Source: Pleurostoma richardsiae
Lineage: Eukaryota; Ascomycota; Sordariomycetes; Calosphaeriales; Pleurostomataceae
Direction: 5' to 3'
Assembly (NCBI GenBank): GCA_030052745.1
Contig: JANBVO010000030.1
Span: 388,133-452,132 of the forward strand
Length of the DNA: 64,000 nt
The notes beneath the pieces were generated by a model. The model ran no database searches and was not told where the DNA came from. It saw only the letters and a list, made by a program, of their open reading frames with translations. Positions 9,351 through 49,527 of this stretch are shown one piece after another (the stretch's first letter is position 1; each line of letters starts with the position of its first letter). A program made the position numbers and the translations under genes.

Positions 9351-9468
9351 TTCACAGGCTTTAGATCGCTCCTCCAAGCCGTAAGGGGTATATTCAACAG
9401 AAAATCCCAGGCTCCCCAAGCATTCGAGCTTTTGGCAAGAACTACACATAGTTGCAGGCCTACGGGAC

Positions 9469-11761: not shown

Positions 11762-13808
11762 TTACTGGTACAAGCTCTCCAAAATTTTCCTATCACGATG
11801 GTCGCTGAGGTCGAAAACAACACCGAAGTCGGAAAGCTCTCGGTGGAGCGACTCCAGCGTTTGCCCATCCGGTGGTTCGGCTGATGTGTATGTGCGTCGT
11901 GTTTCATCAGGATACGGGGCTTTAGGAGATATCTTGCCGAGCCTCGCTCCCTTTGCCAACAGGAGATCGATAATATCGTCACGATAGCTTGCTGATGCCG
12001 CGATAAGGGCGTTTCCCCAGGTCTCTCCAATAGAGTTGGGATCTGCCCCTTCGTCGAGGAGCCGCTTGGCTTCATTGAAGTCGCCATTGAATACCGCATG
12101 ATGGAGGGGCGGATCTGATTGCCAAACTACGTTCTTGACAGCCGTTACCCCCTGAGATGACGCCGTGCACTTGCTACCAGTCCATGATTGAGGTATTTGT
12201 GCTGCGTTACTAGCGTAATTCCCTTCTCCGTCATCTTCAGGACCGCGTGGAATTGCGAAGAGAGCTAGCTGCTGTAGATGAGCTCCAACATGTCGACGAA
12301 ATTGACGAGGATCTACCATAATGATCGCCTGCTGAGGCTTGGTCTCGGAGTAATTTCCAGTGCCATCCGTACTACCAGCCGTTTCTCTGAGTTTCTCGGC
12401 CCATTCATCACAGAAAGGGCAATCGTCGGCTGCTATCGCTTCCAAAGGGGCCTGACTGGCAGTGATAAGGACAGACAACTGAGCCTCGTTCAACTCAACA
12501 TGGACCGCCGCGTGAGCGATGAATCGCTCCTCGGTCTCAAAATTCATGCCGCTGCAAATGATGCAGGCCCAGTGTCGTCGATGGTTTTGGAGTTCATGGT
12601 CGAACCATGCCTGTGGGTTGCCAAACAACTCATCATCGCACCGACCCTTGCCCATGGTGCAAACGTAGGCTTTGAGATCTTGATAGGCATGTCGCTTCCA
12701 TAATCTCTCTCGTGTAATATTCTCCATTCTGTGGCAGAGAATACATTCGAAAATGGCCTCACCTCCGCTTACTTCATTTAAAGTCGGCAGATGCAGCCAT
12801 GCCTCCGCTTCCCCAAGGCCTACCGAGGATGCAGCCGATGAAGATGTGTTTCTATCGTCGTCGGTCTCGTGATCGACCACCTCTAATCGTTTTTCATCAA
12901 GTGTCGACGCTCTCGTTGAGGGTAGTGTCTGCGCTGATTCTGATGCATTGTGCGATGTCCTCGCAAGGGACGGTGCCATGTGATCCCTCGATTCCTTGTC
13001 TTCAACTACCTGACGCTTTTCGAAGCGACTGCTTGCTTTTGCTATCAAGCCGTCTACAACACGGCTCTTTCCTGTGCCTCCAGCAAGCCGATCTCTGTGC
13101 TCTCGGCAGTATCGCAGATAGTGGCGGCGGCTTGTGACCGCTCGTCCTAAACGCTCGAGGAGCCATCTGGCCTCTGGTCTCGCGAGCTTCGGGTACCGTT
13201 CTTGGACATAGTTGATATCAAACTGGTCTATGAAAGGCTCCCGTTTGTCCTGATGAGCTTTCATGAACCTGTCCCGCGGAGTTGCCTTGTAGATAAGTAC
13301 CGACACCTTGAGGAGGCCGCGGACACACTCGGACGCGATGTCGAAAACGTCTTGCGCTTCCGTTTTTGTCTGAGGCGAAACTTCAAGTGCGTCTTCTGCG
13401 CTTACGTTATCCTCGCTATCCTCGGAAGTGGGGAAGATAACATTTATCTCTCTGTTCTCTCTCTTTCCAGCGAGAATCTCGGATACTAGGCTGTATCAGC
13501 TATGAGGAAACACTCGATCGGCCCGAGGCCATCTCCGGGTACTTGCGGTCATTGAGAGCTTCAGATAGCTCGTCAAGCATGTTCATCAACATCCCTAGTA
13601 ACCTAGGGGCGTTTTGAAGCCGCGACTGAAGAGACGAGCTGACGTCTGGACGGAGGGCGGCCCCAATATTCCCTGTCCAGAGTTTGAACCGGTCTACCAT
13701 GTCCAAGACATCATCAGCAGAGATATCATGGCGGTTGTCCATCTCCAGCTGGCTGAGAAGGTGCTTCAAGCGATTTTCAACGCCAGAGACCTTATTGATG
13801 ATAGACAT
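11762..13808 (-). CDS. Fungal C2H2-family protein with ankyrin repeats
   Basis: Exons 13808-13543 and 13490-11762 give about 664 residues if it stops at the TAA at 11764. The N-terminal helical domain carries RFKLWTGNIGA, common in fungal signalling proteins, then a second helical block (YPKLARPEARWLLERLG). Residues about 335-400 form a Cys/His core: FECILC, WKRHAYQDLKAYVC, WFDHELQNH and WACIIC. A later CPFC/RRHVGAH pair follows, and two ankyrin-like repeats lie at about 548-610. The donor of intron 1 is weak (GTACCC), but the phase and the CTGAT branch point fit. The ORF ends in CAGTAAGT, a perfect donor, so the TAA may be intronic and the protein may continue into the kinase, giving 1365 residues. 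The start at 13808 is 268 bp from a divergent DUF7580 gene. Role in incompatibility or signalling is inferred from context. Confidence 0.8.
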
Positions 13809-14076
13809 TGTGGTAGCTGGACTATGGCGATTTCTGATGATGTTGTCGCGGATTCGGCAGAAGACAACAGTACTAAAGTCGCAACGTGATGGAGGAGCGA
13901 GATTACAGAAATCACTAAACCAACCATGCGTCGGCCAATGCACAGCCAATCGCGTCCCAAGCTGAAGATGTTACCCCTCACGCGGCTGTCATGTTTTCAG
14001 CTTGGACTGAACGTCCATCCATCCCTCCCTTAATGACTCTGGGACTCGACTCTGTTAATAGAGACTCGCGAGCAGC
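13809..14076. promoter_or_regulatory. Shared divergent promoter region, first DUF7580/C2H2 pair
   Basis: 268 bp between the two start codons of head-to-head genes. It is too short for two independent insulated promoters, so co-regulation is likely. I see no clear TATA box or known binding motif. Confidence 0.5.
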
Positions 14077-16046
14077 ATGTCAGGATTCGAGATTGCAGGC
14101 CTCGTGCTTGGCGCATTTCCGATTGCCTTATCCGCACTGGAGATTTATGACGAGATCTCACGCCGGTTCGGATTCTGGTACGAGATCCGGAGCGAGTACC
14201 AGAAATGTCAAAGAGATCTGGAGATCCATCAGGAGTTCTACAAGTTCCATCTCACACAGCTTTTGCTACCGCTTGTAGCAGATGATGAACTGGCGAGTCG
14301 ACTCATCGAGGATCCCGGCGCGGAAGGTTGGAAGGCACCAGCTGTCGCAGACGCCCTCGAGATGAGATTGCAGAATCGGTACACGCTCTACCTTGGCATA
14401 ATGTGCGAGATGAAACGGGTTATGGTGGAACTAAACAAGGAACTAGCGGTGGACGCAGAAGGATTTCAAGAGAAGATGAGCAAAACGGTATGTAACTTCT
14501 CGCTCGATAATACGAACCATATCTCGCAGTACCGCCGCTAACGCATGATGTTCTTTCCTTAGCAGGAATCACTAGATCCAAAAGCTACTAGCACCTCAAG
14601 ACTCAAACAAGCATTTGGGAAGAAAAGTCGAGAATACGAGCTTTACCGTATCAAATTCAGTCTAGGAGAGAGAACACGCATTCGACTTTTCCGAGAATTC
14701 CAGATGTACAACGATAAGCTTGAGAAGCTCCTAACGCTGAGCGACACTGTCTCGAATCTGGAAAAAACAAGACAAGAAGACAAAACACGGACTGGGGCTA
14801 CATCGATCAACTCGGCTCTGTGCAAATTCTGGCATCATGCCGACCGGTTGTACAAGGCTCTCTTTAGAGCGTGGGATTGCGATTGTCGCGACCAGCATTG
14901 TGCTCGACTCATGTTGCAGCATCGCCATTCTGCCGAGAGGGAATTTCAGCTGTGGGTATCATCTGGAGCCACTGCCCTTGATGTCAAACATAGTGAGTGG
15001 CTACATCGTCGGATGAGGATCAAAGAGTCGGAAATACTGGAGACCCAAATCATGGGAGTGAAGACCAGGTTGCCCACTTCTCCTTCCGCCTCGGCACCAG
15101 TCCCGCGGCATAGGAGTGCTTTACCAATCAGGTCAGCAGTCCTCAGAGATAAGACTAAGGGATTCACTGGAGCAAAGTCTACTAGGAGGTGAGTTCATCA
15201 GAGGCTGTCTGTGCCACGGAATATCACACGGTGACGGCAGGGACTAACAAGAACTCTTCCTAAAGCTCCCAAACGAGCACAGTTACACTAGTGCCGCCGC
15301 CAACAATCAGAGTCGAGTCGGGAGAATCAGACGATTGCGATCGAATAGTCAGCCTGTGCAGAAAACTCTCTAGCATCGAGAGTGTGGCTATGCAATGCGC
15401 CGGCTTCTTCGAAGCGCTGGACAGGAGGTACTATATTTATCCTGAAACCGAGCTATCCGCCACTCCAACTTCCTACACCAGTCTCGCTCAAATGCTCTCG
15501 AAAGATAGATGCGCACCGTTCACACGCCGGCAGAGGTACCACGTCGCGCTCGTCCTGGCGTCGTCTTTTGTTCAGTTAAAAGATACACCCTGGATTTCAT
15601 CTCCGTTGAGAAAGTCCAATGTAGAATTTTTCCAGGACCATACGAGCACAGTAGAGCTCAGCCAGCCATTTGTAATGAAGCTCTTTCGTCCAACCGAAGC
15701 TCCTGAAGTGCCGCCAAACAGCTTCGACGTCGGAGCCCTCAATTCCCTAGGCATTATGCTTCTTGAACTCTGCTTCGGCAGGGCCATTGAAGAGCATCAC
15801 AGCAGACAAAAATTGCCTCCTGCGGATGATGACGACCAGCGAGGAGCTGTATTTGATCTAATTGCAGCTCTGGAATGGCTGAGGGAGGTTAACGATGAGG
15901 CTGGAGGGGACTATGCCGAGGCCGTGGAGTGGTGCCTTGCGGGGTGTAGGACGCTGTCCAGCAACGCGTTCTGGAGGCAGGAGATGCTGAAGAAGGTTGT
16001 CACGCCCCTACAACGGTGTCATATGTACCTGGAAAGGCAAATATGA
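14077..16046 (+). CDS. DUF7580-family protein, first copy
   Basis: Exons 14077-14487, 14563-15188 and 15266-16046 give about 605 residues. The N-terminus begins FEIAGLVLGAFPIALSALEIY and continues as a long helical bundle with the family blocks FGFWYEIRSEYQKC and LLLPLVADDE, reminiscent of HeLo-like cell-death inducing domains. The C-terminal third has a kinase-like C-lobe remnant: DVGALNSLGIMLLELCFG near residue 505 matches the helix-F region of kinases, while catalytic loop and DFG motifs are absent. The acceptor of intron 1 is a TTAGCAG tandem site that can add or drop one Gln. It is transcribed away from the C2H2/ankyrin gene. DUF7580 proteins have no proven biochemical activity; a role in fungal recognition or cell-death signalling is inference from domain style and neighbours. 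Confidence 0.85.
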
Positions 16047-17144
16047 CTTTTTGAAGATGTGCAATATTATAACTGGATCGACAAATACATATTGCATTGC
16101 ACGATAGGCAACCTGCCGAGAGTCATATCAATTGACCCCGAGCCAACAGATAGGAATCCTCAGCTGATTCCCCACGACAAAATCTAACGTGCAATGCTCA
16201 CACAAAAGTTATCAGACCAATTTCCTTAGCACATAATGAATCCACAAGATATTTACAAGCTCTATTATAGCATGTTCTGCGGGAAAGTGTCCGTGGTTGC
16301 CGAGCCGGATGCAACTGATATTCTGCGAGGCTTTGCAGTACACTCGCTCCCGATTAGGGTTTCGTTGCCTAATCGGCGCTCAGATAGTTCCAAATTCAAT
16401 CCTGTGCTGGAACTGGGACTGTTTCATGCATGTTGATTATCGCGCCTGCATCTGGTGAAACAAAGAGGAAATGAAGTAGCTGCGACGTGGTTTGCCGTGG
16501 GCTTAGCAACGTCGTCTACAGATGGGAGGATTATTCCTAGTATGTTATTGGTCTGTTGTCTCTTGAAGGCTTATCATTGGGGGTGTGATGCGAATAAGGA
16601 CTCGAGGTTCAGCTCCATGATTCAATATAAACATCGTCTGTATTAGCCATGGGAACGTCATGCTAACGACTTTAACCTGCTACAGCGTAGAATAGGCAAA
16701 GCAATTCTCAACAAATACAAGCTCTGAGACGACAGCTCTAGCTCAACGATGCTGAATTCAGAGACGAGTTAAGTGCCGCTTTGTCATTGGAACGGGCCGT
16801 TGTCGGTGGCAGAGAGATATCATGCCGGTCGCGGACCAGGCCGGCAATGCGACATTCGGTATGAGGGTGACGTGCTAGCACTAGTGATAAGAGAGCACCG
16901 TTGAGACCATGCTGACTAGGTTTGGAGGCGAGATTGTGGGGCCGATCTATGTGCAACTGAAGCTCTAGATGGCGACACCGCGGGGGTGCGCCATATGCTA
17001 TGTCTGACTTATAATCAAGGCTGCCAACATCATGTCTCTTTCAATCACCAGCACGCCAGGAGGCACAAAACGCTGACCATATCCGTCGAGCCTATTGGCT
17101 AACCGAGTTGCGGTCTCATCTAGCACCTTTTACGTTTGCAGAAG
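16047..17144. other. Intergenic region
   Basis: 1.1 kb between two plus-strand genes, moderately AT-rich at its left end. Only short ORFs without recognisable domains. Confidence 0.5.
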
Positions 17145-19151
17145 ATGGCGCCCGGCATTCTTGTTGACGACGCAAGCAAAGAAGGGGGCCAAGGGACATT
17201 GACTGTAACAGTAACCGAGATAGTCACGAAAGCCGTGCAGACTTCAACACCAGACGACATACGGAAAGCCGCAGAGATTGAGTATCCTCCTTTAAGGACG
17301 ATATGGCCGCACCTGAAGCTAGAAGAGCACCCCATAGACGAATTCCCACCCCTTAGGGTTGTTGTCGTCGGTGGGGGTATCTCCGGCATCACTGCTGGTA
17401 TCCTGCTTCCCACGAAGGTGCCAAATCTAGATCTCGTCATTTATGAGAGGAACGATGACATTGTATGTGGAATCCCCTCCAGCGTGTGAAGGTTCGTTGA
17501 TGCTGACCTCTGAACCTCTTTCTGCTTATAGGGAGGAACATGGCATGCAAATGTGTACCCTGGAGTCCGGTGTGACGTGCCAGCACATGCGTATCAGTCC
17601 ACGTTCGCTCCGTCACCAGAATGGAGCGAACCCTATGCGCAGGGCGCGGAAATCAAGGCATACTGGGAGAAGGTGGCTGATAAGTTCGACGTACGCAAGT
17701 ACATCCAACTGCGAAGCCGTGTGCTTTCGGCAGAGTGGTCTGAAGCAAAGGGGAAATGGCTTGTCGAGGTCCAGACCCCTGAGGAGACCTTTATTGACGA
17801 GGCCAACTTCATTGTCACTGCTACTGGCCACTTCAGTGACCCAAGACTGCCTGACTATCCCGGCATTAAGGAGTTTCAGGGCCACCTCCGACACAGCTCC
17901 AAATGGGACCAAAGCTTCGACCCTACAGGCAAGCGGGTCGCGGTCATTGGCAACGGCGCATCGGGCATCCAGGTTACTCCACAGCTACAGAAAGTTGCCT
18001 CGCACGTGGACCACTACGCCCGCAACAAGACCTGGGTGGCTGCATCGTTTGGCGGAGAGGGCCACGCACAGTTCGTCGCCGATAACATTGACAAGGCGCG
18101 GGAGAGCCCCGAGAACTATGTGAAGTTCCGGAAGGAGCTCGAGTCGAGCCTATTTAGCCGTTTTGGCGGCATCTTCAAGGATACGGCGAAGAACCGCGCC
18201 GCACGTGAGACCATCACGGAGCTGATGACATCCCGGCTTGCGGGTCGTCAGGATCTGGCCGAGGCCATCATCCCGGACTTCGCGCCCAACTGCCGCCGGC
18301 TGACCCCTGGCCCGGGGTATCTGGAGGCTTTGGCGCAGGACAATGTTAGCTACATCACGACTCCCATTGAGAAGTTTACTGCGACTGGCATAGTCACAAC
18401 GGATGGTAAAAATCCTCTCACCCGTAACTGAACATGTAAGTGAGATGCTGACGTATGTTTTCATGCAGGAACGCATCGGGAGGTCGATGCAGTGATCTGC
18501 AGCACCGGCCACGACATCACCTTCAGCACGGCCTTCCCCATCCTTGCTCACGGCGTGGACCTGCAGAGCTCCTGGCGGCCAGGCGGCAATCCGGGCTTCC
18601 CGGACACCTACCTCGGCATCGCGGCCCCGAGCTTCCCGAACCTGCTCCTGGTCCTCGGCCCCAACGCGGGCGGCCCAGGCGGAACGCTACCGCACGCGGT
18701 CGAGAGCCAGCTGACGTACGTGGCCAAGGTGCTCCGCAAGGCCTCGACGCAGAGGATCCGCAGCATGGCACCGAGCGTCGCGGCGACGCTGGACTTCCGG
18801 GCGTACTGCGAATCCTTCTTCCCGCGCACCGTCATGAGCGAGTATTGCAGCTCCTGGTACAACGGCGGGATCAAGGGCGGGAGAGTGCACGGGATGTGGC
18901 CGGGGAGCGCGCTGCACGTCAGTCTGGCCCGGCAGGACCCTCGGTGGGAGGACTGGGAGTACACCACGTGGAATAGCCAGGGTAACAGGTTCGGGTACCT
19001 TGGAAATGGATGGTCGAAGAAGGACGTTCTGGCGAATGAAGGCATTGATGGGCTCGAGGTGGACTTGACGCCGTGGCTGATTCCCGAGTCCGTGGAGGGG
19101 AAGGTAGACTTGAAGAGTTATCATGAGAAGTGGTGGGAGAACTACGTGTAA
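17145..19151 (+). CDS. Baeyer-Villiger-type FAD/NADPH monooxygenase
   Basis: Flavoprotein monooxygenase that would insert oxygen into ketones or oxidise a small lipophilic substrate. Exons 17145-17462, 17532-18405 and 18469-19151 give about 624 residues; phases match at both introns. The FAD-binding Rossmann motif is GGGISG (76-81), followed by GGTWHANVYPGVRCDVPAHAY (107 onward), typical of class B monooxygenases. The Baeyer-Villiger-type fingerprint appears as FQGHLRHSSKW (221-231; the usual final WP is WD here). The NADPH motif is GNGASG (246-251). The in-frame TTG codon upstream was rejected in favour of the first ATG. An N-terminal extension of about 70 residues precedes the FAD domain, as in many fungal homologues. 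It has no obvious biosynthetic cluster around it, so catabolism or detoxification is as likely as secondary metabolism. Confidence 0.92.
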
Positions 19152-19493
19152 GAATCTGCACGTCCGAATAGCTATTTTCACAATATTCAACTCTATATTC
19201 AGAACCTATAGGCAATAGCACAGATAGTAAACTACAACCATAGGTGGCAAGATTATACGCGGTGGTAGAGCAAACGACGGCAAGCCCTCGGGCCCCTCTG
19301 AAAGGAGATATGGATCAGACCGCTGTGTCACAAAGCTGCTAATCTTTATCAAAAGCTTTATTTGTCACCAAAACCTGTTATTTTCAATGATACGCGCTGA
19401 TACAGAGTATTGCTGTCTCGCTGGTCTGGTGTTCGGGTGCCAACCCAACTTCAACTAGATCCACTTAATCTTACCTTGTGGTGAGGATTCACC
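19152..19493. other. Intergenic region
   Basis: 342 bp between the monooxygenase stop and the small Cys-rich gene, which converge. Nothing recognisable beyond expected 3' ends. Confidence 0.45.
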
Positions 19494-19727
19494 TTATATA
19501 CCGGAACCCTCGTCTGACGCGGTGAATTCGTAGACATCCTTCGTCTTCGTACAATCAGGAACTACCTCTTCCCTTGTCACATGGACCCTCCGGAGCCCAA
19601 GATCGCAACAGCCCAGACCACCGCGAGACCGAGCCTCTCGACACATCATGAGAGAAGCCTCCTTCCTGTAGTGCATGAAAGCCTTGCAGTCAGCACAGAC
19701 CACCCTGGCAATTACCTTCTGGCACAT
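19494..19727 (-). CDS. Small Cys-rich protein, copy A
   Basis: A 77-residue intronless ORF starting MCQKVI. Cysteines lie at positions 2, 11, 14, 29, 40, 41 and 59, with the block CREARSRGGLGCC. It has no signal peptide. I do not recognise a named family, but it aligns with the ORF at 20438-20674: the same MCQ start, Cys11 and Cys14 at identical positions, the same CREA-x2-RG-x2-G-x-C block with 12-residue Cys spacing, and nearly the same length. Such agreement between two otherwise different sequences argues that both are real coding regions. The CxxC arrangement suggests zinc binding, which is inference. Confidence 0.55.
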   Translation of the reverse strand: MCQKVIARVVCADCKAFMHYRKEASLMMCREARSRGGLGCCDLGLRRVHVTREEVVPDCTKTKDVYEFTASDEGSGI

Positions 19728-26095: not shown

Positions 26096-27732
26096 CTACT
26101 CGTTCCCGACATTCAGACGTACTGTCTCCTGGACGACGTCCTTCCTGACTTGAATGCCGCTCAGGCTCTCCCTCGGCGACGAGGCGCCTGACACTGTCTC
26201 GGCGCGGATAGTCACGAAAGTTCCCTGCTGCAACCCGAGGTGCTGCTCAGAAGCAGTGCCCGCCGCAGCTGCCGCCATGCCGCGTCTCGCGCTCTCCAGT
26301 CCCATCACGCTCTCACCCGGACTTTCAGGGGGTACCGCAATGCCGACTATCCTCGCTAGGGAGACAAACGAACTTCCACCGAGCTCCAGATCGCCCAGAC
26401 GAGGCCGCTCCTTCTTGTCTTCGACGATTTTACCGCCTGGTCTCTGGGAGGAGCTTGATGACCTCGACATGGCATCCTCCTCCTTTCCGGTGAGGTCATC
26501 CGGGCCGCGACGTCGATACCGACTCCCTCCGTAGAGCATACGCGTAACACCGAAGTTCCGTGCCTGGCAGGCCTTTTGGGCCAGACTCCTGGCCAAGTGT
26601 CTTGATGCCGGGACTACACGGGAGAAGATGGGGCGCAGGGTGGGCAGGGAGGCGCAGACAATGGCTGAGCACAACTCGCCAATGGACCAACCCGCCGCGG
26701 AGACGTTGTCGTAGGTTGGATCGTCGCCCAGGTTTAGGAACTGGATCCGGATGACGGAGATGGCACAGGTGCTTTGGTCCTTCTCGTCAACAACCCATCG
26801 ATCGGCGATCATGTGTCAAGGAGATAGAGAAAGCGGCCGAGGACTTACAAGAACCCGAGGCAGAATATCCCAATCAGCGACAGCCTCTGCCCTCTCGGCA
26901 GGTCCAGCCGCCACAGCACCGGCACCGGCAGCGCGAGGATGATGACGTCGGTGACAATGTTGCCCGCGGCGTTGACGTACCACTGCGGCAGGCTCGGGAT
27001 GCAGCGCGTGCCGGGGGCGGCGCGGACGTCCGCGTTCCAGAAGCCGGCGACGGGGATACAAGCGAAAATGGAAGTCAGGACGAGGGCCATGCTCCACAGG
27101 CCAGTCAGAGCGATGGCGGCCAGGACGGCGAGGCGCATCTTGATGGCGAAGACGCGGTAGTACTGCAGGAGAAGGGCGAGCTTGACGGCACCGAGGCCGG
27201 TGTAGTAGAGGACGACGGAGACGTAGAAGCACTGGCGGCGGGTGGCTCGTCAGCACTGTCGAGATCTTCCTTCGATTGCGCGGCGACTCGCCTTGTAGTA
27301 CTCGATTATTTCGTTGCTCGTGAGCGTCCGAATGTGCTTTCCCAGTCCAGTTGTCGTCATTGCGCACATGTCAATACCAGTTGCGATGGCTATTATCTTC
27401 GCGTGTCAAGGTTAGCTGGGGAACATGCAGGTTGTCGCTTGTCAAAAGGGGCAGAGTGCGCGTACTAACGATGCAAGGGCCATCCAGTCATCCACTCCGA
27501 CTGAGCGAATGATGAAGGCTCTCGTGTAGAAGCGAAGCACTACTATGAGGCAAGAGAGCGGAAGGAGACCGCTTACGATGGCGACGATGACATAACTTCT
27601 GCTATCCGTGGGACGGTCGGACGGATATCGGGAAGCGGTCACGATAGTCTCCCCCATCTCTTCGACTACTAAGAGTGGTGCTAATGACGGGAGCTCTCTT
27701 GGGAGATGCATAGCGGTAACATTACTTAACAC
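26096..27732 (-). CDS. PTH11-like rhodopsin-domain membrane protein
   Basis: Seven-helix fungal integral membrane protein of the large rhodopsin-domain/PTH11-like family; no CFEM domain is present. Exons 27732-27466, 27396-27292, 27231-26849 and 26771-26096 give about 476 residues, phase-consistent throughout. Family signatures: VLRFYTR in helix 1, VGVDDWMAL, the GLGKHI block, EVLYY-like FYVSVVLYYTGLG, FWNADVRAAPGTRCI in the extracellular loop, VTDVIILALPVPVLWRLDLPRGQRLSLIG, and the final helix region SIGELCSAIVCASLPTLRP. Intron 2 uses a GC donor (AAG/GCGAGT). The cytoplasmic tail of about 180 residues is Ser-rich. Members may sense surface cues, but most have no assigned ligand. Start could also be one of two inner ATGs. 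Confidence 0.88.
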
Positions 27733-35512: not shown

Positions 35513-36566
35513 ATGGCCGCAGCCGCAGTCCAGCAACCTCCCTCTTCCGCCCACGGCACGTTCGTGGAGCCTCTTGCCTCCGGCAAGACAGACGCCAGCC
35601 ATGACGTCGTAACCGTCCTCAACTACTATAAGGATCCGGGCGATGGGTCTCCTCCGGCTCCTGCTTATGTCGGGTAAGGCACCTCGATAACTTATACCGA
35701 CGCTATGCTGAATGAGACTCTAGGAAACCAGAGACATACGACCGCCCCTACATCACACAGGAGGTTGTGATCAAAGATATCAGCGGCCACGAGGATGATT
35801 ACACTCTGGACAGCCATGGCTTCCGGATCTACAAGCACGAGAGCAAGGAGAAAGACTTTTTGGACGACGAGAAGATCAAGGCGGAGTACTACCCCGAGAC
35901 CGAGCAGCTGCTCAAGGATGCGTATGTTCCCTATGGTGCGAATCTCCCAGGACGAGGATCCTAATAGAATGTCTTTCCAGCACGGGTGCTTCGCGCATTT
36001 TCATCTTCGACCACACCATTCGCCGCCAGACCAAGGACGAGCGTAGCGCAGGCGCGCAGCTGCGGGGCCCAGTACTCCGAGTGCACATTGACCAGTCATA
36101 CTCTGCCTCTGAGAACAGAGTCTCCCACCATCTCCCCGATGAGGCAGACGAGCTCCTGAGGAAACGCTTTCAGATCATCAACGTGAGTGAGCCCACTGGA
36201 ACTATGGTACGAATGAGCGGCTGACCTTGTCCTTTGCAGGTCTGGCGCCCCATAAAGACGATCTACAAGGACCCCCTGGCGGTTGCCGACGCCAACTCGG
36301 TCCCAGACTCGGACCTGGTCCCCACGGCCCTGATATACCCCGACAGGCGTGGCGAGACGTACAGCGTCAAGCCAAACCCGAACCACCGCTGGTACTTTAA
36401 GTATGCGCAGCGGCCGGACGAGGTGACTCTGATCAAGTGCTACGACTCGGTGAATGATGGGCGTCCCAGGCGAATCCCCCACTCTGCCTTTGTCAACCCC
36501 TCTGAGGAGGACAAGCCGCCCAGGGAGAGCATTGAAGTCAGGGCTCTTGTATTCTATGATGATTAG
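35513..36566 (+). CDS. CmcJ/AsaB-like hydroxylase or methyltransferase-family protein
   Basis: Member of the fungal family annotated as CmcJ-type (7-alpha-cephem-methoxylase subunit-like), AsaB-like or GA4-desaturase-like. Members occur in secondary-metabolite clusters and as orphan genes. Exons 35513-35673, 35724-35921, 35981-36182 and 36240-36566 give about 295 residues; all phases match and introns are 50-59 nt. Signatures: TVLNYYKDPGDGS at the N-terminus, IFIFDHTIRR, VHIDQSY with the conserved HxD pair, VWRPIKTIYKDPLAVADANSV, DEVTLIKCYDS and a C-terminal ESIEVRALVFYDD. The HxD suggests Fe(II)/2-oxoglutarate-type metal binding, though biochemical proof in this family is thin. It converges with an MFS transporter gene 735 bp away, a possible minimal metabolite unit. 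Confidence 0.9.
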
Positions 36567-37301: not shown

Positions 37302-39143
37302 CTATCGAGGATGGGAAGGCGGCTCGGCCGGGCTCCGTTCGTTTGTCTCAAGTCCCTCCTCAAGCTCTCCGTCACTGGGGGGTTCTACCTTCTTCGGCGG
37401 CAGATCGTCCCGCTTGAGGCCCCAACCACCACTCCAGCCTATCCAGCGTTTCTCGCGCGGACCTCGGGCCAGGCACACGACGAGGGCGAAGCCGAGGAAG
37501 CCAACTACCAGTCGGTCAGCAACAACCAAAGAGATACATACCAGATATGTGTATTGGACTTACTGCTGCAGCCCCCGCTCCACCGCCACCCGCCCTCAGC
37601 GTACAGCCTGTTACCGACAGCCGTTCCAGTCAACTGCCCGCAAAATGCACACACCATGTAAGCAGTGTTGATCCTGTTCCTAGCCTTTGGGTTGATGGTG
37701 TATATGGCGGATCGGTTGGCGATGTTAATCGCCTGGTTCCCCAGGTCTATCACGACGGCCATGATTATTGGGCCGGCGACGGTAAAGGTTCCAATGAACG
37801 TGCCGATGATGACGCCCACGAGCTCAATCGAGATGCCAATCAAGTTCGAGTAAAGTGGCTGGATCTTGTCGATGACCCACCGGCTGTAGGCGGGGCCCCA
37901 ACATATGATAAAAATGCCGATGAGGGCGAACAAGCCGATTACAAGAGAGCTATATGAATAGGGCGGAGATGACAGAAGAAAGGAAAGCGTCGTCCAGTAT
38001 GAGGTAAAGACGGCGCTCAGCGAGTAGCCCACGAGGCTGGCCTGAACGAGAAGCGGCTCGGTGAAGATGAGGTACACGATACTCCAGAGCATGCTGAAGT
38101 AGTTGAGGCCTTCTGGGTTGAGGGAGGGATAATCCGGCATGAAGAAGTAGAGCAACACGACCACAACCCACTGTGCACCGAAGGAGAACCAGTAGATGTT
38201 CCGCCAGTCGGTGTAGTTTGCTACGATGCCAGAGAGAAGGCGAGCGACGAGCATCCCGAGAGACATGCCGGCTGCGACGATGGAGAGGGCGGTAGCCCGT
38301 CGGTGTGCCGGTGCAAGTCCTCCCACGAGCGGGAGCATTAGCTGGGGCGTGACGGTCATCACTCCGCAGATGAAGGATATGCCAATGAAGGCATTGAACG
38401 AATGCGTGAGACATAAGACGATCCACTGCTGAGTGTCAGCATAGCTGCAGTTGCAAAGGAACTTAGGGTGGTCTCCTTAGGTTCCCATAGAGCGGACGTA
38501 CCAGTGTTGCAGTCAGACAGCATAGCAAAAGGATGAATGGTCGACGTCGGAATTTGTCTCCCAGGGGACAGAGTAGCAGGAGTCCGCAGGCATAGCCTGC
38601 CTGCATCAGCGTCGCAACAGACGAAGCCCTTTCAAAGGATACGTCAAAGGTGTCTGCGATTCTGTTGAGGATGGGCTGGTTGTAATACAGGTTGGCAACC
38701 GTCATCATGGCAGCCTAGCAGAGAAGATCAGTTACGGATTCGGGGATGGCACCAAGCTGTCAGATGTGGTAAAATCAGCTTACTGCCGTGAAGAGGAAAT
38801 TCAGAGCTAGGGTGAATTTAGGGGGGTTCTCCGGGTCGTATCGACATGTCTTCGGCGTGTACTCCCAAGCATCTCTGACCTTGCCGGCCAACATTCGAAG
38901 CCATCCTGCCTCATCTCCGATTGAACCATCGAGAGTGGCCGAGTCCGGGGTTGCGGCTGGCCCCTTTCCTCTGCTGATATCAGGCAAAGCCTCGCCAATC
39001 TCTGCCACTCTACTCCTGTTCTTCTCTTCGGCTGAGGAAATGCCGATGCCGACGCTGGAAGTGGTGTCCTCCAGTATTGACTCAATTACTTCTCCGTCGT
39101 CTGATGGCTTTTCCTCCTGGTCTTTGGCGTCTGCGGTGCCCAT
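37302..39143 (-). CDS. Major facilitator superfamily transporter
   Basis: Membrane transporter with about 12 helices, of the AraJ-like/drug-efflux type. Exons 39143-38784, 38714-38502, 38425-37564 and 37504-37302 give about 545 residues, phase-consistent. A 120-residue cytosolic N-terminus rich in Glu/Asp/Ser leads to MTVANLYYNQPIL in helix 1. The motif-A-like loop is PLGDKFRRRP. Later helices include ATALSIVAAGMSLGMLVARLLSGIVA, TEPLLVQASLVGYSLSAVFTSYWTTLSF, and the final AYMVCAFCGQLTGTAVGNRLY. The acceptor of intron 2 is a CAGCAG tandem, giving plus or minus one Gln. Intron 3 uses GTAAGT and removes a stretch that otherwise reads open for a short way. Substrate unknown; efflux of a small hydrophobic compound is typical. 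Confidence 0.92.
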
Positions 39144-42100
39144 GGCTTCCGACGCCTCGCATTCCGGCCTGAGAAATCACGGCGCCGATTTGCGGAGCTC
39201 CGTCCACCCGCGGTCGGCAATCTGCCGAACAGGTCCGGTGTAGGCGACGGAGTCGGTGCGTGGACTTCGGCCTCACTTCACGGTGTAGAAATGTGTGACT
39301 GTTACTTTAGGAGATTCAGAATCCGATTGAAGCTCCAAGCTCTTTGTATTGTATTCTAGTCAATCAAGAGATGAATCAAAACGTCGGGCAGATAAACGGT
39401 GTGGATCTGAGTCCTGACGCAATTTACCCTCGGGGATAACACAGCACTAACACGCATGCAGCTCTACTGCATATTCCTCGCAATCTAAGGGCCACCATCG
39501 GCGTTAGGCGGGTGCTGGTGCGTGTTGCCGAACGGAGTAGCGGGGACTTCCGATCGGCTTGACAAAGCCTCTCGGCAACTTCCCTGCCGAGACCGGGAGC
39601 GAAAACAAGACCGGCACCGGCCGGCCTCGATGGCGGAACGGCCAGTCGACCCTCTGTTTATCACTTTATATTGTCACAGCTTAGCCGACCGATCGTAAAT
39701 ACGTTATACATTGAAGGACTCCTATCCTTAGGATGCTAGTCCTGCTGCCATTGAGTCAACCGGTTAGCCCGGTCCCTTTTATTTTTAGTTCATACAGGAT
39801 GAAAATTCAGAACTTTAAGACCACAGCTCGTGCATATCTCGCAGTCGAAGGGCTTGATGATTAAGGAGATGGTGGTCTTCGCGTCGTCTAGGGATTCAGT
39901 GCTTACGCGCCCGCCAATATGACAAATCATAACATGGCTGGCGGGCAGTATAAAGCCTGCTCGTCGGTCAGAAACGCTGATGACGCGACCACGAGCTCAC
40001 CCCCAGCCCGTGCGGTGGTCGTGCTCGGCGATGACATGCTCGTCTCGGTTGTAGAATTCGCCAGAGGCGAGGCTCAAGATAATCTTCGCTATGCTGCCGA
40101 CGACAAACCTTTCTTCGTTTTTATGCTTTGTAGAAGGGAGTCTCCGCCTCTGTGATCGCGGGGGTAACGGAACAAATCGTTTTCACTGAGCAGGAGAACT
40201 AGCCCGTGGTACATCTGACACAGCGTTAGAGCGGTTTTGAGACTGTGCCACTTACTTTTTCTTCAATTGCCATTGCTAAGAGTTGAGCCGTACCATTTCT
40301 CTTTTGCTTGACGGGGTAGAAACGTGATCTTTCGCTGCCTTGAGAATGACCCAGCAACACGGCTGGCAGTCTTCCTCGCCGGGCGTTTCCTCTCCGTTCA
40401 AAGTCGACTAACAAGTGACAGATTCGATATAGACATAACACTATGACATATGGTGTGTTAAGTCATCCTCCAGCTGTTATACCTGAAAACCAGGCTAGTC
40501 CTCCGACTGGCGGTGTTGCTTTTCCCGCGCGCCTTCCCAAGGCATATTCCCTAAATTAACCTTTCAGCTTCTGCCATCTATCGTTGCGTAGACGGATTCA
40601 TTTCTAATCATTGTCAACCGCCTTAGTCTGTAGAGGGGGTGCCGGGTAGCTGGCGAGAACCAGAACAGAGAAGGGTCGTTGTCGGACCTCCTCCAGAGGT
40701 ATCCGCAGAGCGTCAGGATGATTAGCACGATGGGCTAGGTTGTTGTAGTATAGAAGAACTACCTGGCCTGTATGTTGGATTGGCGACGATTGATTGGGTC
40801 AAGATAGTAGATATGGGGCCATAACCACAGTATAAGTCTGGCAAATGGGGTGCCGATCAATCTATCAGATAACTGATGCTGGGACATCTGGTGATAGCAG
40901 GAAGGGAAGGAGGAGAAAAAAATATAGAAGGGCCTGCTAGATTAAGACGGGAGGACCAGGGGGATGAGACGCTGGTGGGTACATCCCTGGCATGGCCTTC
41001 CACATCACACATGTGACTCAAAAGGGAACATAGAAAACTGCGACTGCGTCGCGACTGAGAACGTTGAGCAAGCCATCCATCCTACTGTTCTATATCCGTA
41101 CTCCCGTATGCCTCTCTGTTTCAGCCCAAGAACAATGGCATAATACCAAACATCAGTGTTTTCAAAGCACCCTTCGGAGCTCTGTGCTGATATTGACCCG
41201 GAGGAACAACCAGGTTCTGAATACAACTAGTACGCGGAACCCTCGGGAGCGAAGCGGGATGGCAAGGATGGCTCCGATGGGTACTGCTTCCAAAATGTGG
41301 AACTCTTTGCAGAATGGGATCAACCCAAGCGCCATTAGTATCGACACATTTGACACTAGTTACCTACTAGATATGTGATTAGCGCCCTCGATCAAGGAGC
41401 GAGGGGGGTTCGTCGTGAGCCAAAGGACGATCCAGCATCACCATGGCAATGAGGGACCCGAGCGCGCAGTAAGAATCGCAATTTTGCACATTCCGGACTC
41501 CAGATTTTGAATAGCATCTTCTAGCTCAAGCCTAGAACATAACGCCCCACTGTACTGCCGCGATGGATGTCTCAAGCCTACAGTCTTTCTCTGACCTCGT
41601 TGTTGTCGATGACCCTCGAAACTGGATAGCTCTCCTGAAGAAGCTTTCCAAACATCAAAAACGCTGGCCACAGCCAGGGCATCTCTTTCCCGGCGGATAG
41701 GCCGGAATAAAGGATTTACCTAGCGGGTTGATTGTCGCCCTGGATCGCGCTACATAGTGGAGATATCCGTTTTAGTGTACGGGAATCAGGATGTCAACGA
41801 TGCTGCCCGGTGTGCGGATCTTGACGATTTGACAATTAGCACGATTTACTAAGGTGAAAGAGGCCACGCCGTTCAATCTGATTGACGATATCTGAAGTCG
41901 GAAACGGGGTTACGCGTCATATGGACCCCGTTTGTGCCAGATCTCGCAATCCTGGGCAGGGGCCATAGCCGCGGCTCTCTCCTTATTATGACGCATGCTT
42001 CCGCACCCAACGGCGCGGTGACATTCTTTTAGGGCTGTTGCAGGATCGATTAGCCCCCTACAGCACTGCACACTCTTGGCGATTTCTGCTCGCGCTTCCT

Positions 42101-42210
42101 GCCCTTACCGATGTATTCTACGCGGCCTTGACACATGTTAGTTCGGGAGACTCTTGACGCTCGCTATCTGAATCTCACGAGGGCCTCACTCTGGCCAAGA
42201 ATAGGGCACG
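39144..42210. other. Intergenic region between divergent transporter genes
   Basis: 3.1 kb between the MFS and aquaglyceroporin starts. A weak minus-strand possibility around 39780-40140 (a short ORF starting MICHIGG and ending with a CEICTSC cluster) lacks enough support to call. Short ORFs around 41.0-41.7 kb have no recognisable domain. No repeat or transposon seen. Confidence 0.4.
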
Positions 42211-44155
42211 ATGGAGGAAAGGGCGGCTACGGGATCGGAGTCTGAGGTGAGTCTGAAGTGCAACATAGCACACTATTGGCTCCCGACTCTCGCGGTCTCT
42301 CGCTTACCGGCTAACGATCCCGCCGCAGCCGGAGATGTCTTCGGCCGTGGACGATCGACCTGCGCCCCGGACGTCGTCCACCCGAAGCCACAGAGACGAT
42401 GAGCCCGGTGATGTGGCCTCGCGACCCAGGAGAGCCACAGGCGTTGCTTCGGCGTCAAGAAGACGGGCTGCTACTGGAGTGGACGCGAGTGCGGAGGGTG
42501 TGCGCCGCCGCAACACGATTGCTACTTCGAGGAGGACCGGCGTGCCCAGCCTGTCCCCGCGGACTACGCTGGCCCAGAGAACACATGGCCAATTCACCCT
42601 TGCAGGCCCGGACGAGACCCCGCAGGTGATGGCCGCCCACGAACCGTTTGTGCACCCGGGCTATGTGGACCTCAACCCGGCATACGAGCAGCCCAGCAAC
42701 GCCAAGCCGGTCTGGAGCTTGGCCAAGCCTCTCCCGCGCGTTGTCCGGCCGGGGATGGTGCCGACGAAGAGCGAGCTGCTAGAGAACCGCATGAACGCCC
42801 AGCTGCCGGCCGAGAACTCGCAAAAGCTTGGCCTGGACGTCGACCCAAACGAGCTCGAGAAGGGCCGGATCGAGAAGTCAGCCGATTTACGGAAGATTGC
42901 TGCACAAGTCACAGATGCCCGGATTCAGCGAGAGAATAACTTCATCAAGACGGTTCTGGGGAGCGAAACCGCCGCCTCCACTCGTTTATCAGGGGCCAGC
43001 CTGAGCCGAAGTCGCACCGGCGTTCAGGTTCCCGCAGCTTCGTCTCCTCAGCTGTCAGCGGTGCCGGAGAATGGCGTGAAGGTCGATGATGGTGGTTCTG
43101 ATGAGCAGCACGACATTGGTGAGGGACAGGACACCGAGTTTGCGGAGCATTTGGATGGCCGTCATGACGAGCCCATTGAGGGTAATGTGTCCCTAGAGAC
43201 GCTCGGTCTCGACGAGGCAGCGTACCCAGAGGATCTTCATCCGTTGGTACAGAATCTCGTCGAAGAGGAGGTGCACAACAACCACACGGCGTGGTCTGTT
43301 ATCCGTACCCACCACCGTGAGGCCTTAGCCGAGTCCCTGGCCGTCTTCGTTCAGCTCACCGTCGGTTTCTGCGCTGATCTGTCCGTCACTGTGGCCAAGG
43401 CCGGCAATCCTAATACCACCGACTGGGCCTGGGGATTTGCAACAATGATTGCTATCTACATATCCGGTGGCGTCTCCGGAGCGCACTTAAATCCGACCAT
43501 TACGATCATGCTATGGTTCTACCGAGGATTCCCGAAGCGCAAGATGCCAGAGTACTTCCTGGCCCAGTTCATCGGCGCCTTCTGTGCAGCCCTGGCTTCG
43601 TATGGCGTGTATTACGTCTCGATCCAGCATTATCTCACCACCGACTCGGCGGACGGCATCATCACGAGTTTCGTGACGAGCCAGCGCTCGTCCTACATCA
43701 ATGCGCCCACCGCCCTGTTCAACGAGTTTGTGGGGACGATGTTTCTCACCGTCACGGTCCTGGCTCTTGGCGATGACCAGAACGCTCCACCCGGGGCTGG
43801 CATGAACTCGCTGATCGTCGGACTGGTCATCGCCTGCCTCAGCATGGCTTTTGCTAATCAGACGGGTGCTGCCCTGAATCCTAGCCGTGACTTCGGCCCG
43901 CGGCTGGCCCTCCTGGCTCTTGGCTACGGTTCCGAGCTGTTCACGAACCCTTACTGGTTTTACGGCCCCTTCGTCGGGACTCTTTGCGGGTCCTTCACGG
44001 GTGCTTTCCTTTACGACTTTATGATCTTTACTGGTGGGGAATCGCCCATCAATTATCCCCTAGACCGCACACGGCGGGCGATGCGAAAGAGCCGGATGAA
44101 GTGGCGGCGCCGCCTGCACGCAGGGAGGAGGGACGTGGATGGGAAAGTTGTCTAG
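42211..44155 (+). CDS. Aquaglyceroporin (MIP family, Fps1/Yfl054-like) with altered NPA boxes
   Basis: Membrane channel for glycerol or other small solutes. The best model has a 36-nt first exon (42211-42246), an 82-nt intron with GTGAGT donor and CTAAC branch point, and exon 2 at 42329-44155: about 620 residues. A start at 42335 alone would also work. A disordered N-terminus of about 330 residues precedes six helices. The first selectivity half-loop reads SGAHLNPTIT (Asn400) and the second AALNPSRDFGPR (Asn529), so both boxes deviate from NPA (NPT and NPS). The Asp after Arg in the second loop marks glyceroporins. Length and N-terminal extension match the fungal Yfl054-like/Fps1-like groups, which are much longer than ordinary aquaporins. 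Osmoregulation by phosphorylation of the N-terminus is plausible by analogy. Confidence 0.92.
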
Positions 44156-44418
44156 TTAGCGAAAGCGACTTATGTTTATGCCGATCACCGAGAACCATCC
44201 TCGCCGGAAACTAAAGGACGTTTCCGTCATTCCCGAGGCTACGCTACGCTCAGGTCTTGCGATATGAACCGGCTAAGACTGTCATTTACAACACGAATGG
44301 TAGTTTAGATGGAGTCAGTGGTGAAGGGAAGGACATGGGAACGGCTAAGACGTCTAGACCTAGAAAGAAGCTGCTTATCATTCCCAGGCTGTTCTCCTTA
44401 CGCTAAATTCTTCGCGCC

Positions 44419-46346
44419 TCACCCGCACCACGTCCTCAATTCCTCGGTCCGTCCCTCAAGTAACCCGACCATGCGCTCCAGCTCGCAGACTACGTTTTCG
44501 TAGATGGCGCTCTGAAGCTGCGTCTGTTGCAGGTCTGCACCGAAGCCGAAGTCGCAGTACAGGCACTGCTCGACGAGCCGGTCGTAAAGTGGCCCGAGGC
44601 GCGAAGTCTTTCCCGCGGCGCGGCGCACGCGAGCTACGTCGTCGGCGTCCAGCGCCATCCAGTGGCCGATTTGCACCAGCGCTGCGCCGAGGCTGTACAT
44701 TGTAGCGTTACGGATGCCGCAGTAGAGCGACGCATCGTTGTCTCCGACCTCGGCGTCGTTGGAGGAGGAAGGAGAAGGGAGAACTTGCTCGATAGCATCT
44801 TTTATCTCTACGTCACGCCCCGTGGTAGACGGGAGGATCTTAGTAGCGATGTGCAGAGTGCTCAAGGAACGGGACAGCTCAGTGTCGATGTCGAAGTACG
44901 ACAGGTCAGCAAGACTCCAGTTTTCCCTCCACCAAGGGGTTGAGTGGAACTGGAGCACGGAGCGAACGAGACGAAGAGCGAGGCGGAGCTGCTCGTTGAC
45001 GGAGAGCTCCACGATTTTGGTTGGATTCAGGATTGATGCCAAGGACTTAGGTGGGCAGCAGCTCGTCTGGATTGCGATGCTCTCTCGGTCTCTAGTCATT
45101 AGTAGCCGGTGTCTGAGATTGCTTGCCGAGTCAAAGTACCCGACGCATGCGTCTTGAGCTGGTTTGGTAGGGGGTTTAAAAACATCTCGGCAGACGTCTG
45201 TCGACTTGCAAAGATCGCTAGGTGTACATGTGCTTCGTCTCCCTTTCATGCACGGAGCAGCTAGATAGTCGCTCTTTTTTGCTGTCCGAACGGACGCTTT
45301 GATGGAATCATCAACGAATCTCACTCGTCGAACCTTGGGTGGTGGCTCTTCATTGTCAAGTGATGATGACGAGGATTCCGGTGTCGGAAGATCAGTCTCA
45401 ACCCAGGTCAAATCCTCGGATCGGACGCGAAGAAGCAATAGGCTCCTGCACGAAGAGTGAGTATAGTTATCAGTTCAGCTCTCGGGTCTGCTTGGAGGTC
45501 CTTGATGAGAGCACATACTTCTGCTGAAGAGCCTCCGAGATCGCCTCGTACTCTAATATCAGCCGTAGATCGATGTGTTCGTCTGAGGCGTCCGCATCAA
45601 GCAGAAGTTTGGCGGTGTGTCTAGAGTGCACGCCGTCGGTGTTCAGACAGGACCATTTGCGAACGAAGACATCGTGAAATGAGGTCGAGTATTTGGTCAC
45701 GAGACCGTAGGTCTGTGGCATGACTTTCTTTTCCAGTGTGCGCTTCGTTTTACGATCTTGGGTCGCCTTTGCCATCTTCCGCAACCTCCGAAGCTCATTT
45801 GTCGATCCAAGGAGGTCCTCAATAGCCTGATCCATCCTGGACTTGTTCAAAACAACACCAATAGCACCGCGTGCCTTATGGGCGGTCGCGGACAGCTTCA
45901 TCCATTAGCCCAGTTCAAGCCACTCAACTTACAGTAGTAAGACATGACCTTACCTTGCCAAGATTTGAATGATCATGGTCTAGATTACTCAGATCATCGT
46001 CAATAGACTCGATCTGTTCCCCAATCAGTTGAATAACGTCTTTGACGGCCTCATACTTCCTTCCGAGATGCTTTCGTAATTGGCCGTCGATCTCGGCAGA
46101 GGTCCATCGCTCGGAGGACAAGTTCCCCAGCATATCCTCTACAGTGGAATCATCGAAAACCTCGAGGAGCAGGAGCTGGGACTCGTCAAGGAAGATCGAA
46201 ATCTGCGTCTTGAGCCTTATGCGAAGGCGACGTGCCTCCTTATCGTAGTGGCGAAGCAGTCGCAATTTCTTCCTCGCAATCTTGGCCCCTGAGAAGACCG
46301 AGAGACAGAGCGGTGCAATGCCCAGTGCAAGTGACACTGGGTCCAT
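44419..46346 (-). CDS. DUF7580-family protein, second copy
   Basis: Exons 46346-45954, 45895-45519 and 45445-44419 (introns of 58 and 73 nt) give about 598 residues. The N-terminus MDPVSLALGIAPLCLSVFSG and the helical blocks RRLRIRLKTQ and FLDESQLLLLEV match the layout of the first copy at 14077-16046, with low identity. The middle has basic SKRM-type helices, then a Ser-rich linker. The C-terminal third keeps kinase-like C-lobe traces (QLRLALRLVRSVLQFHSTPWW; NATMYSLGAALVQIGHW) and a final helical tail, without catalytic motifs. The gene starts 408 bp from a divergent C2H2-family gene, repeating the arrangement at 13.8 kb. Function unproven. Confidence 0.85.
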
Positions 46347-46754
46347 GTTGTGACTGCTATGGTTGCGGATGAAGAATCAGAAATTGAGCGGGTGTCGCGT
46401 CAAGGGAGAGGAAATGGCCATAAGCCGACTTCTGGCGAATCACCTTAGGTACCTCCGAGATACCACCTGCAGTACGCCTTGCAGGCCGCCTTAGCCCTTG
46501 TTGGGGGGCTGAGCCGTGGCGGTGTGCAGGGTCGCATGCAAGTCGAGTAGTAGAACATCCTGCGATGCCAGGGCAGACGGCAGTCCAACAACTCTACAGC
46601 AACAGCTGTTATTATCGAATAGCCCACAGAAGTTTGGAGGGTTGGCTTCGATTCATTCCACAGCTTACGTTCTCGAATTTTTTCCCACTTCTCATCGCCA
46701 AGTCACGATCATTCTTATCGTTTTGCGTTGAATGTCAACGTCGCTAATTAAACC
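46347..46754. promoter_or_regulatory. Shared divergent promoter region, second DUF7580/C2H2 pair
   Basis: 408 bp between opposite start codons. Short enough for a shared regulatory region. No clear TATA box; no motif obviously shared with the 13809-14076 region by eye. Confidence 0.5.
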
Positions 46755-49527
46755 ATGAACGAGCAGATCCAGCAGTGGCAGTCGTCACTTCCGAGTGCTG
46801 ATCGTGATGATCTGGCTTGTACGAGAGGCGATGGTCTCGCGGCCCGCCTGACTTTGGCCGCATGCGAGGTGTACCAGCTAACTCTAAAGCACCTTGCCGG
46901 CCAGATTCCCAAACAGTCATATCGCAGGTTTGAACGATCGCGGGACTACCTAGTCCTATGGTCGGACGGCTACGGTGCACTTTCTGGAGATTTGGACATC
47001 GTTCTCAGCGACTCAAGAAGACTCCGGCATGCTACACTTGGTCATTTGGTTAGTATCTGTCGTACACTAGCCAACAGTACGTGTCCTATTCCACGCCTTA
47101 TCATACATAACTTCAGTTTGAAGCCGCATAGAAGTTTCGATAGGGTAATAAGCTGACGGCACTAGAACTAGGCCCACTCGCCCATAACCAAACCGAGACA
47201 CGGATAAATGAGCTGGCGGCGGAGGTTAGAGAGCTAGCCGAAGCCGCGGCATACACCATCCGAGACCAGGCGAAGAGTGATTCGGATAGTGACGGTGACG
47301 ACAGCGATGTCTCTTCTGACAATGGTGACAGCCGTCTCGAGGACGTGGCTGGAGATCTTGAGACAGAAATAGGGTGCCTCCAAACTCTAGGTCCGAGCTA
47401 CGAGGAGCCTGTTCAAGGAAAACCGATCAAAGAGAAGCCAGCAGTCGCGTCGCACGACATAACTTGGGATCCTGCGGAATACTTGGCTGCTCGGATCCGT
47501 GATCGCTATCCAAACGGAGACGATAAGCTTCTCAGTCTCCTCGGTAAAGCAAATTGGCATAGGATCCTAAGACTTCATGCGGTGAAAGAGGAGAATAGCC
47601 TAGTGGCAGAGGCAGATGGTCCCAGTCAAGGGAAAGCGGCAACCATTGGCGCAGCGAGTTTCCATGACTCTGGATTGGGGAGTTCTGTCTCGCCAGCTAG
47701 CTCCTATGCAGCAACCTTGGTGTCATATCGTGGTGGCGAGGGCGGATCAGTCAGGATACCATCTCTTCCTACAGAGGGAGCCGGTGGAAAGCCTTTCACC
47801 TGCTTCATGTGTGCGAGGAAGATCTGTACCCCAACAACATCAAGCTGGAAGTGAGTGAATTAGATGGACACCTCATCCACTGGAACTATAAGCTGATTAA
47901 CGGTCTATCTAGGCAACACGTTCTACTAGATCTCCAACCTTACGTGTGCTTCTTGCCGGCCTGCAGATTCAACTCTAGTCCTTTTGAGCACAAAAAGACA
48001 TGGATTCAGCATCTCGAGCTGGATCACGACTTTGCTAATAACTGGCAGGACATGACCTGTCTTCTCTGCAGGGCGCCTGCAGGCAGTAGCAAACAAGCAG
48101 TTGTTTCGCACCTCTCCCGTCACCTTGAAGAGACATCTCTGACCATTCTGCACACTAACGGGGATTCGGACGACGAAGAATCGGGTCATTCCAGTGATCT
48201 AGAGTCCGTCATTAATAGTACCTCTACGGTCGAAGAGAACGAGGAGAGAAGCGTCAAATTGGATTCAGCCAAGGAACCAAAACTGATAGTGGAGTACACT
48301 TCCTCAAAGTCGGGCTTGAAGAAGACAGCCCCCAAGCCCCCTGCTCCTATGCCACGGGACACAGAGGTCATTATTGACCCAGAATCACAAATTCATGTTT
48401 CCCCAGATGTCAAAAGTGTCAATCGAAAGCAGATAACCTTGACTGAACTTGCTATCGAGCCCGAGGAAGCCGACAGAGTATCGGTTCAATTCCCATCACA
48501 ACGCGCTGCAAGCAGAGAACTGGTTACAGAGAAGCTGATGCTCTCTCCAGCCTGGAGTCCAGAGCGGCCCTTCGCCAAGGAATCCGAACCCATGAAATGC
48601 TCCCACCCCGGCTGTGACAAAGATTTCAGACGACCTAGCGACTGGAGCAAGCATGAAATGGCGCATACCCGGGTGTGGAAATGTCCCAAGGCCACCTGCA
48701 AATACGGCGCATACGGCTGGTCGACTGAGAAGGAACTTGACCGACATATCAGGGACAAGCACTCTTCCAACCCTCCCAAAATGTATGAATGCTCGTTCAA
48801 GCCATGTCCTTATCGGTCCAAGCGGGAGTCCAACTGCAAGCAACATATGGAGAAAGCGCATGGCTGGACCTGGCTGCGAACAAAAGTCAAGGCTCGGAAG
48901 CACGGTACCTCCAAAGAGGTGCAAGCGGGTCATGGTGAAGGCGAAAATGACTTTTCCATAACCCAGGCACCAGTTCCGACAAAGTGGAATGCCGTGGACA
49001 GTGGCAATGAGGTTCCCAGTTTCGACCTCAACAACCGGTTTCCTTTTTTACACGATGACCAGCTTGGTTACACACCTCATGGTAATGAAATGCGCTCTAT
49101 TATGGACGATCCCTTCCCTTTTCTGGATTTGTCCGCAGGCTTACAGTCGTACCAAATCCCGACGTCGCTGCAGAATGAGAAGGGCAAGGCGGCAGTTGAC
49201 CCTGTCGGACAGGGCCACGGCATGCTCGCTCCTAGCTCTCTCTCGGACATTGACGAAGCCTTTGGGGATTTAGAAGGCGACCTTTTTTTTGGGAACCTTC
49301 CAAGCAAAGATGGACAGGGCTTTCTATTTGATAATTTTCCGAGCAAAGGAAGCGACCTTCTCTTTGGGGATTTTCCGAGCAATGAAGGGGACGGGTTTCC
49401 CTTGTCCCCTAGCGCTTCTTCGTCTCGAGAAGCCTATAAGGGAAACTCCCTCGCACAAGACATTTCGCAGAATGCCTCAGCACGCAAAGTGGAGGACACA
49501 GAGGATAATGGACCTTCGCTTCATTGA
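46755..49527 (+). CDS. Fungal C2H2-family protein with three C-terminal zinc fingers
   Basis: Exons 46755-47076, 47166-47850 and 47913-49527 give about 873 residues, phases consistent. The N-terminal part (DYLVLWSDGYGALSG, then EYLAARIRDRYPNGDDKLLSLLGKA) and the atypical Cys/His core (FTCFMC, SWKQHVLLDLQPYVC, WIQHLELDH, MTCLLC, VVSHLSRHLE) are homologous to the C2H2/ankyrin protein at 11762-13808. Instead of ankyrin repeats, the second half has three regular C2H2 fingers at about 565-656 (CSHPGCDKDF, CPKATCKYGA, CSFKPCPYRS), so DNA or RNA binding is likely. The acidic, hydrophobic C-terminus contains imperfect FPSK repeats and could be an activation region. A second reading frame starting CEEDLYPNN near 47809 looked like a frameshift but is a shadow, because the phase-2 intron at 47851-47912 restores the main frame. 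Confidence 0.87.
49264..49398 (+). repeat. Imperfect tandem repeat in the C-terminus of the C2H2 protein
   Basis: Three degenerate units of about 12-14 codons: FFGNLPSKDGQG, FLFDNFPSKGSD and LLFGDFPSNEGDG. The DNA copies share TTTTCCGAGCAA-like cores, showing duplication at nucleotide level. The acidic/aromatic pattern resembles activation-domain motifs. Confidence 0.75.

Follow-up and report, generated by a model that had tools for sequence, protein, structure and literature searches.

Two divergent gene pairs at the locus

The window analysed here, the whole 64-kb stretch of contig JANBVO010000030.1 of Pleurostoma richardsiae from position 388,133 to 452,132, contains two gene pairs in which a gene for a protein with an unusual Cys/His core (genes A and D) and a gene for a DUF7580 protein (genes B and C) stand head to head. 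The window had a GC content of 55% and encoded protein families including HET, fungal rhodopsin and fungal transcription factor domains (Pfam), a content that suggests a filamentous ascomycete. The splice models of the four genes were picked by hand from the DNA sequence alone and then checked by script, so that the exons and proteins described below are predictions. Positions are counted from the first nucleotide of the window.

11762..13808, minus strand: gene A, Cys/His-core protein of 664 aa, exons 13543-13808 and 11762-13490 (hand splice model)
13809..14076, no strand: A-B intergenic region, 268 bp between the ATGs, presumed shared promoter region
14077..16046, plus strand: gene B, DUF7580 protein of 605 aa, exons 14077-14487, 14563-15188 and 15266-16046
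44419..46346, minus strand: gene C, DUF7580 protein of 598 aa, exons 45954-46346, 45519-45895 and 44419-45445
46347..46754, no strand: C-D intergenic region, 408 bp between the ATGs, presumed shared promoter region
46755..49527, plus strand: gene D, Cys/His-core protein of 868 aa, exons 46755-47048, 47153-47850 and 47913-49527

All four models were open frames with GT..AG introns. The acceptor site was ambiguous in two introns, intron 1 of B (by one codon) and intron 1 of D (by a few codons). The pairs A(−)/B(+) and C(−)/D(+) were both divergent, were placed in mirror order and lay 30 kb apart. An earlier description of the window, made from the letters and translated frames only (the sequence-only reading), had reported two head-to-head pairs with start-to-start distances of 268 and 408 bp, and the hand models recovered exactly these values. 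By exon arithmetic, B and C each have three exons, with their introns in phases 0 and 2. Gene A had a single phase-2 intron, and gene D had a phase-0 intron followed by a phase-2 intron that fell within the core. Apart from the cross matches between A and D and between B and C, a search for further copies of the families in the window (tblastn, E ≤ 1) gave just three matches, at E ≥ 0.25.

The DUF7580 proteins B and C

Both B (82.1 bits, E 7.6e-23) and C (39.0 bits, E 9.6e-10) scored above the curated cut-off of 27 bits for Pfam PF24476 (DUF7580). They qualify as members of this family, and the DUF7580 assignment of both partners in the sequence-only reading was upheld. The two proteins aligned with 20% identity over 482 aa (E 6e-8). 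Compared by segment, the observed score was reached by 1 of 1000 shuffles for residues 1-150, by 7 of 1000 for the middle part and by 0 of 1000 for the C-terminal part. As judged from their predicted sequences, B and C are related in each of the three segments. In each of the two proteins, the 19-residue stretch with the highest hydropathy anywhere in the chain began at residue 6 (Kyte-Doolittle values of 1.84 in B and 1.74 in C). Such an N-terminal stretch is compatible with a putative membrane-inserting helix, but is not proof of one. A PDB sequence search with the N-terminus of B (269 aa, E ≤ 10) returned 0 chain sequences, and the literature searched yielded no paper containing the term DUF7580.

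The DUF7580 partners had also been described as carrying a remnant of a kinase-like C-lobe. This found no independent support in Pfam, motif, hhalign or PDB sequence searches. Neither B nor C had a Pfam Pkinase match or an HxDxxxxN motif. The sole DFG (residue 555 of C) was positioned after the 'SLG' helix and thus not at the place of an activation loop. When the B/C exon-3 alignment was compared by hhalign to the kinase encoded in the window itself, two loci from B, the probability was 2.2 and the E-value 0.021, and the 'SLG' helix was set on the 'SMG' helix of the kinase. No kinase was among the matches of B exon 3 in a PDB sequence search (E ≤ 10), which returned three distinct chains (E 0.26, 1.2 and 1.9), twice DNA primase and once an amino acid transporter. 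An AlphaFold model of B exon 3 based on a two-sequence alignment with C exon 3 had a mean predicted local distance difference test (pLDDT) score of 34.4 and was judged unusable. On these predicted sequences, a kinase-like character of DUF7580 is neither established nor refuted.

The Cys/His-core proteins A and D

The cores of A (aa ~336-420) and D (aa ~313-412) were homologous, with 27% identity over 134 aa (E 1e-13) and a score reached by 0 of 1000 shuffles. The W-K-x-H and D-L-x-x-Y-V-C patterns quoted in the sequence-only reading were both present in this core, and the claim of a common atypical Cys/His core was borne out. The same reading had assigned one N-terminal helical domain to both proteins. 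Whereas the core held, the likeness outside it was weak: the score was reached by 14 of 1000 shuffles for residues 1-140 and by 2 of 1000 for residues 1-300.

The label 'C2H2 family' agreed with the spacing of the Cys and His residues, but a Pfam zinc-finger cut-off was reached in neither protein. A had no zinc-finger match in the whole-protein scan, and the best match of D was zf-C2H2 with 13.9 bits, below the cut-off of 25.2. Zinc-finger models also stayed under the Pfam cut-offs when the cores of A and D were scanned alone. 'C2H2' is therefore used here as a label derived from residue spacing. A PDB sequence search with residues 1-505 of A (E ≤ 10) returned 0 chain sequences, and a structure model of the A core built together with part of D was judged unusable (mean pLDDT 39.9).

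The C-termini of the two proteins differed, as had been noted before. Protein A contained an additional Cys/His set (C446, C449, H489 and H493; aa 446-493) and a C-terminal ankyrin repeat that scored just above the Pfam Ank cut-off (23.2 versus 21.1 bits). Protein D had three additional C2H2-like fingers (aa ~558-647, by Cys/His positions) and three imperfect repeats of 12-13 aa starting at aa 787. The D repeats were encoded by three imperfect 35-nt units at 49283-49392 (plus strand), spaced by 39 and 36 nt. They were acidic and hydrophobic, with an LFxxFPS-like pattern, and could represent an activation-type region.

Neighbouring genes

The genes beyond A were, in order, a protein kinase gene and a remnant of a HET-domain gene. 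The kinase gene (9472-11647, minus strand) was located 114 bp downstream of A on the same strand. It encoded an HGDLKPRN catalytic-loop motif and had DCS at the expected DFG position. Its N-terminal region had no Pfam match above cut-off and no detectable similarity to B, C or A, with 756, 455 and 242 of 1000 shuffles, respectively, reaching the score. The HET remnant (7557-9479, minus strand) matched only the second half of Pfam HET, with 15.3 bits in the one open reading frame (ORF) scanned (cut-off 22.5). A PSWSW motif was found downstream, and HET-like pieces were present in different frames with stops between them. The HET gene looks decayed, although unmodelled introns may contribute to this appearance. 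The kinase gene and the HET remnant agree with a neighbourhood involved in nonself responses, but any variable region would be expected to contain such genes as well. Elsewhere in the window, two divergent genes with fungal-specific transcription factor domains were located at 53520-55315 (minus strand) and 60171-63174 (plus strand), with ~4.9 kb between the ORF edges.

Pairing, chance adjacency and duplication

Coding stretches were merged by hand into 18 gene loci; for unpaired loci the gaps are distances between ORF edges, with not every exon modelled. Four weak pieces were excluded from the merge (936-1322, 26815-27246, 35997-36194, which lies within a listed locus, and 37347-37634). Divergent orientation was found in 5 of the 17 neighbour pairs, with gaps of 268, 408, 3,092, 4,092 and 4,855 bp. 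The only tight gaps among them were those of A/B and C/D themselves. In permutations of 17-24 genes, given two genes per family, both pairs were adjacent and divergent with p = 0.0009-0.0018, a value that is suggestive only, since it is conditional on the gene content and the families were chosen post hoc.

We tentatively favour the interpretation that A/B and C/D are ancient examples of a single genuine divergent pairing of a DUF7580 gene with a Cys/His-core gene, the products of which would be made together from a shared promoter region. This interpretation is based on the open gene models with their short gaps, on the DUF7580 scores above cut-off, on the homology of A to D and of B to C, on the restriction of tight divergent gaps to these pairs and on the permutation result. 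The common N-terminal hydrophobic peak of B and C, the kinase and HET neighbours and the precedents for couples of unlike genes in fungal nonself recognition (PMC3321046, PMC10890737) point in the same direction.

Several observations weigh against it. The pairing was observed in one 64-kb window of one genome, and the permutation p-value is post hoc. In filamentous ascomycetes, both families have many members, which may cluster in fast-evolving regions; this would raise the frequency of chance adjacency. The two intergenic regions had no 8-mers in common on the same strand, where shuffling predicted 0.39 common 9-mers and 1.54 common 8-mers. On opposite strands, with the gene roles matched, they agreed in a single 9-mer and in four 8-mers, and the 9-mer contains two of these four; overall, the common words were taken as about what chance would give. 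Partners had no motif or similarity in common beyond chance (52 of 300 shuffles reached the score for A-B and 35 of 300 for D-C; cross controls: 115 of 300 for A-C and 236 of 300 for D-B). The N-termini of B and C had no Pfam match to HeLo, sesA, sesB or other cell-death domains up to E ≤ 10, in a scan in which the HMMER filters drop most matches above ~0.1.

The main alternative is coincidence, in that two lineage-expanded families residing in variable regions have become adjacent twice with no functional link. We regard this as nearly as likely. The post hoc selection of the families, the chance-level promoter words and the missing partner motif all fit it, as does the setting of A/B, whose kinase and HET-remnant neighbours would suit a variable compartment. 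Under random gene order, a genome of 12,000 genes would contain 0.002-0.42 divergent pairs of this kind, if the two families are assumed to have 5-100 and 10-100 members. The conditional permutation result for the double divergent arrangement speaks against coincidence, and so does the fact that both tight divergent gaps of the window belong to precisely these two pairs.

We give less credence to a single event, an ancestral pair that was duplicated, inverted and moved by ~30 kb, so that the present pairs would be diverged copies kept by linkage. The homology of both members across the pairs, their mirror order inside the same 64 kb and the common three-exon layout of B and C (phases 0 and 2) are in its favour, although such a layout is as expected inside one family. 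The identity of merely 20-27%, the intron number and phases that differ between A and D and the dissimilar C-termini oppose it, and no repeat of at least 20 nt (seed 12) linking A/B to C/D was reported within 7000-50000. Given the low identity, and since A and D are unlike in their introns and C-termini, a recent duplication of one pair is unlikely. A very old duplication is still compatible with the data.

A possible division of labour

If the arrangement is a genuine pairing, divergent transcription from the short shared promoter region would lead to both products being made together. The DUF7580 protein may then be associated with a membrane through its hydrophobic N-terminal stretch and serve in the pair for signalling or as an executor. 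Its partner with the Cys/His core would be a sensor, a scaffold or a transcriptional partner or regulator, acting through its variable C-terminus, of which an ankyrin repeat (A) and DNA-binding-type fingers (D) would be variants. The setting could be a stress or nonself response. Overall, the sequence-only reading was partly supported, in that the pairs, the DUF7580 assignments and the divergent arrangement were upheld; that the proteins of such a pair work together is a conjecture drawn from this arrangement.

Comparison with known paired systems

Couples of the HET-S/NWD2 type are adjacent genes, divergent in some species, whose products have a prion-forming motif in common (PMC3321046). Like these couples, the gene types described here are adjacent (268 and 408 bp between the ATGs), are divergently arranged and recur with related members. 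Unlike them, A, B, C and D had no NACHT or NB-ARC (STAND) domain (Pfam, E ≤ 1), B and C did not match Pfam HeLo, and the partners had no motif in common. The resemblance to couples of a NOD-like receptor (NLR) and a HeLo-domain protein, which the sequence-only reading had drawn, failed on these three features.

Adjacent unlike genes can make up an incompatibility locus, as in het-B (Bh/Bp), and 89 neighbouring pairs of PII-like and HET genes, ~5% of the PII-like homologs, have been reported in Pezizomycotina; in Podospora didyma, two PII-like paralogs each adjoin a HET gene (PMC10890737). The pairs described here are similar in joining adjacent unlike genes. They differ in the families involved, and the present pairs are known as predicted genes. 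Head-to-head NLR pairs are reportedly rare in Sordariales (13 of 225 two-NLR clusters), in which 34 NLRs bear a C2H2-type zinc finger (PMC12258605). In the portion of PMC10197012 available, C2H2 and zinc finger had 0 occurrences. According to a 2025 review, some fungal HELL domains belong to proteins that, like MLKL, also have a kinase or pseudokinase domain (PMC12881547). The idea of an MLKL-like fungal executor is therefore not new in itself. B and C may have a putative layout in common with these proteins, in which a helical N-terminus that targets the membrane would be followed by a part resembling a kinase.

No title or abstract opening among the literature matches listed described this gene pair. 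Among prokaryote genome contigs, 10 stretches matched a pattern for B and 6 a pattern for the D fingers, with 0 confirmed in either case. Among viral contigs, the A core had 1 match and the B/C exon-3 alignment 15, again with 0 confirmed, and the D fingers had none. Since the collections searched were prokaryotic and viral, these blanks are uninformative on fungi.

A more far-reaching possibility is that the pairs constitute an undescribed, NLR-free class of fungal two-gene module for immunity or allorecognition, in which a membrane-targeted, MLKL-like DUF7580 executor would be under the control of a divergently encoded Cys/His-core partner; the exchangeable C-terminus of this partner, ankyrin or DNA-binding fingers, would set sensing or switching. 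We see only a slim chance of this. If the pairing proves to be enriched across fungi, it would offer a first entry to the function of two fungal families about which little is known, and would suggest that paired genes can form a module of immunity or allorecognition that operates without an NLR.

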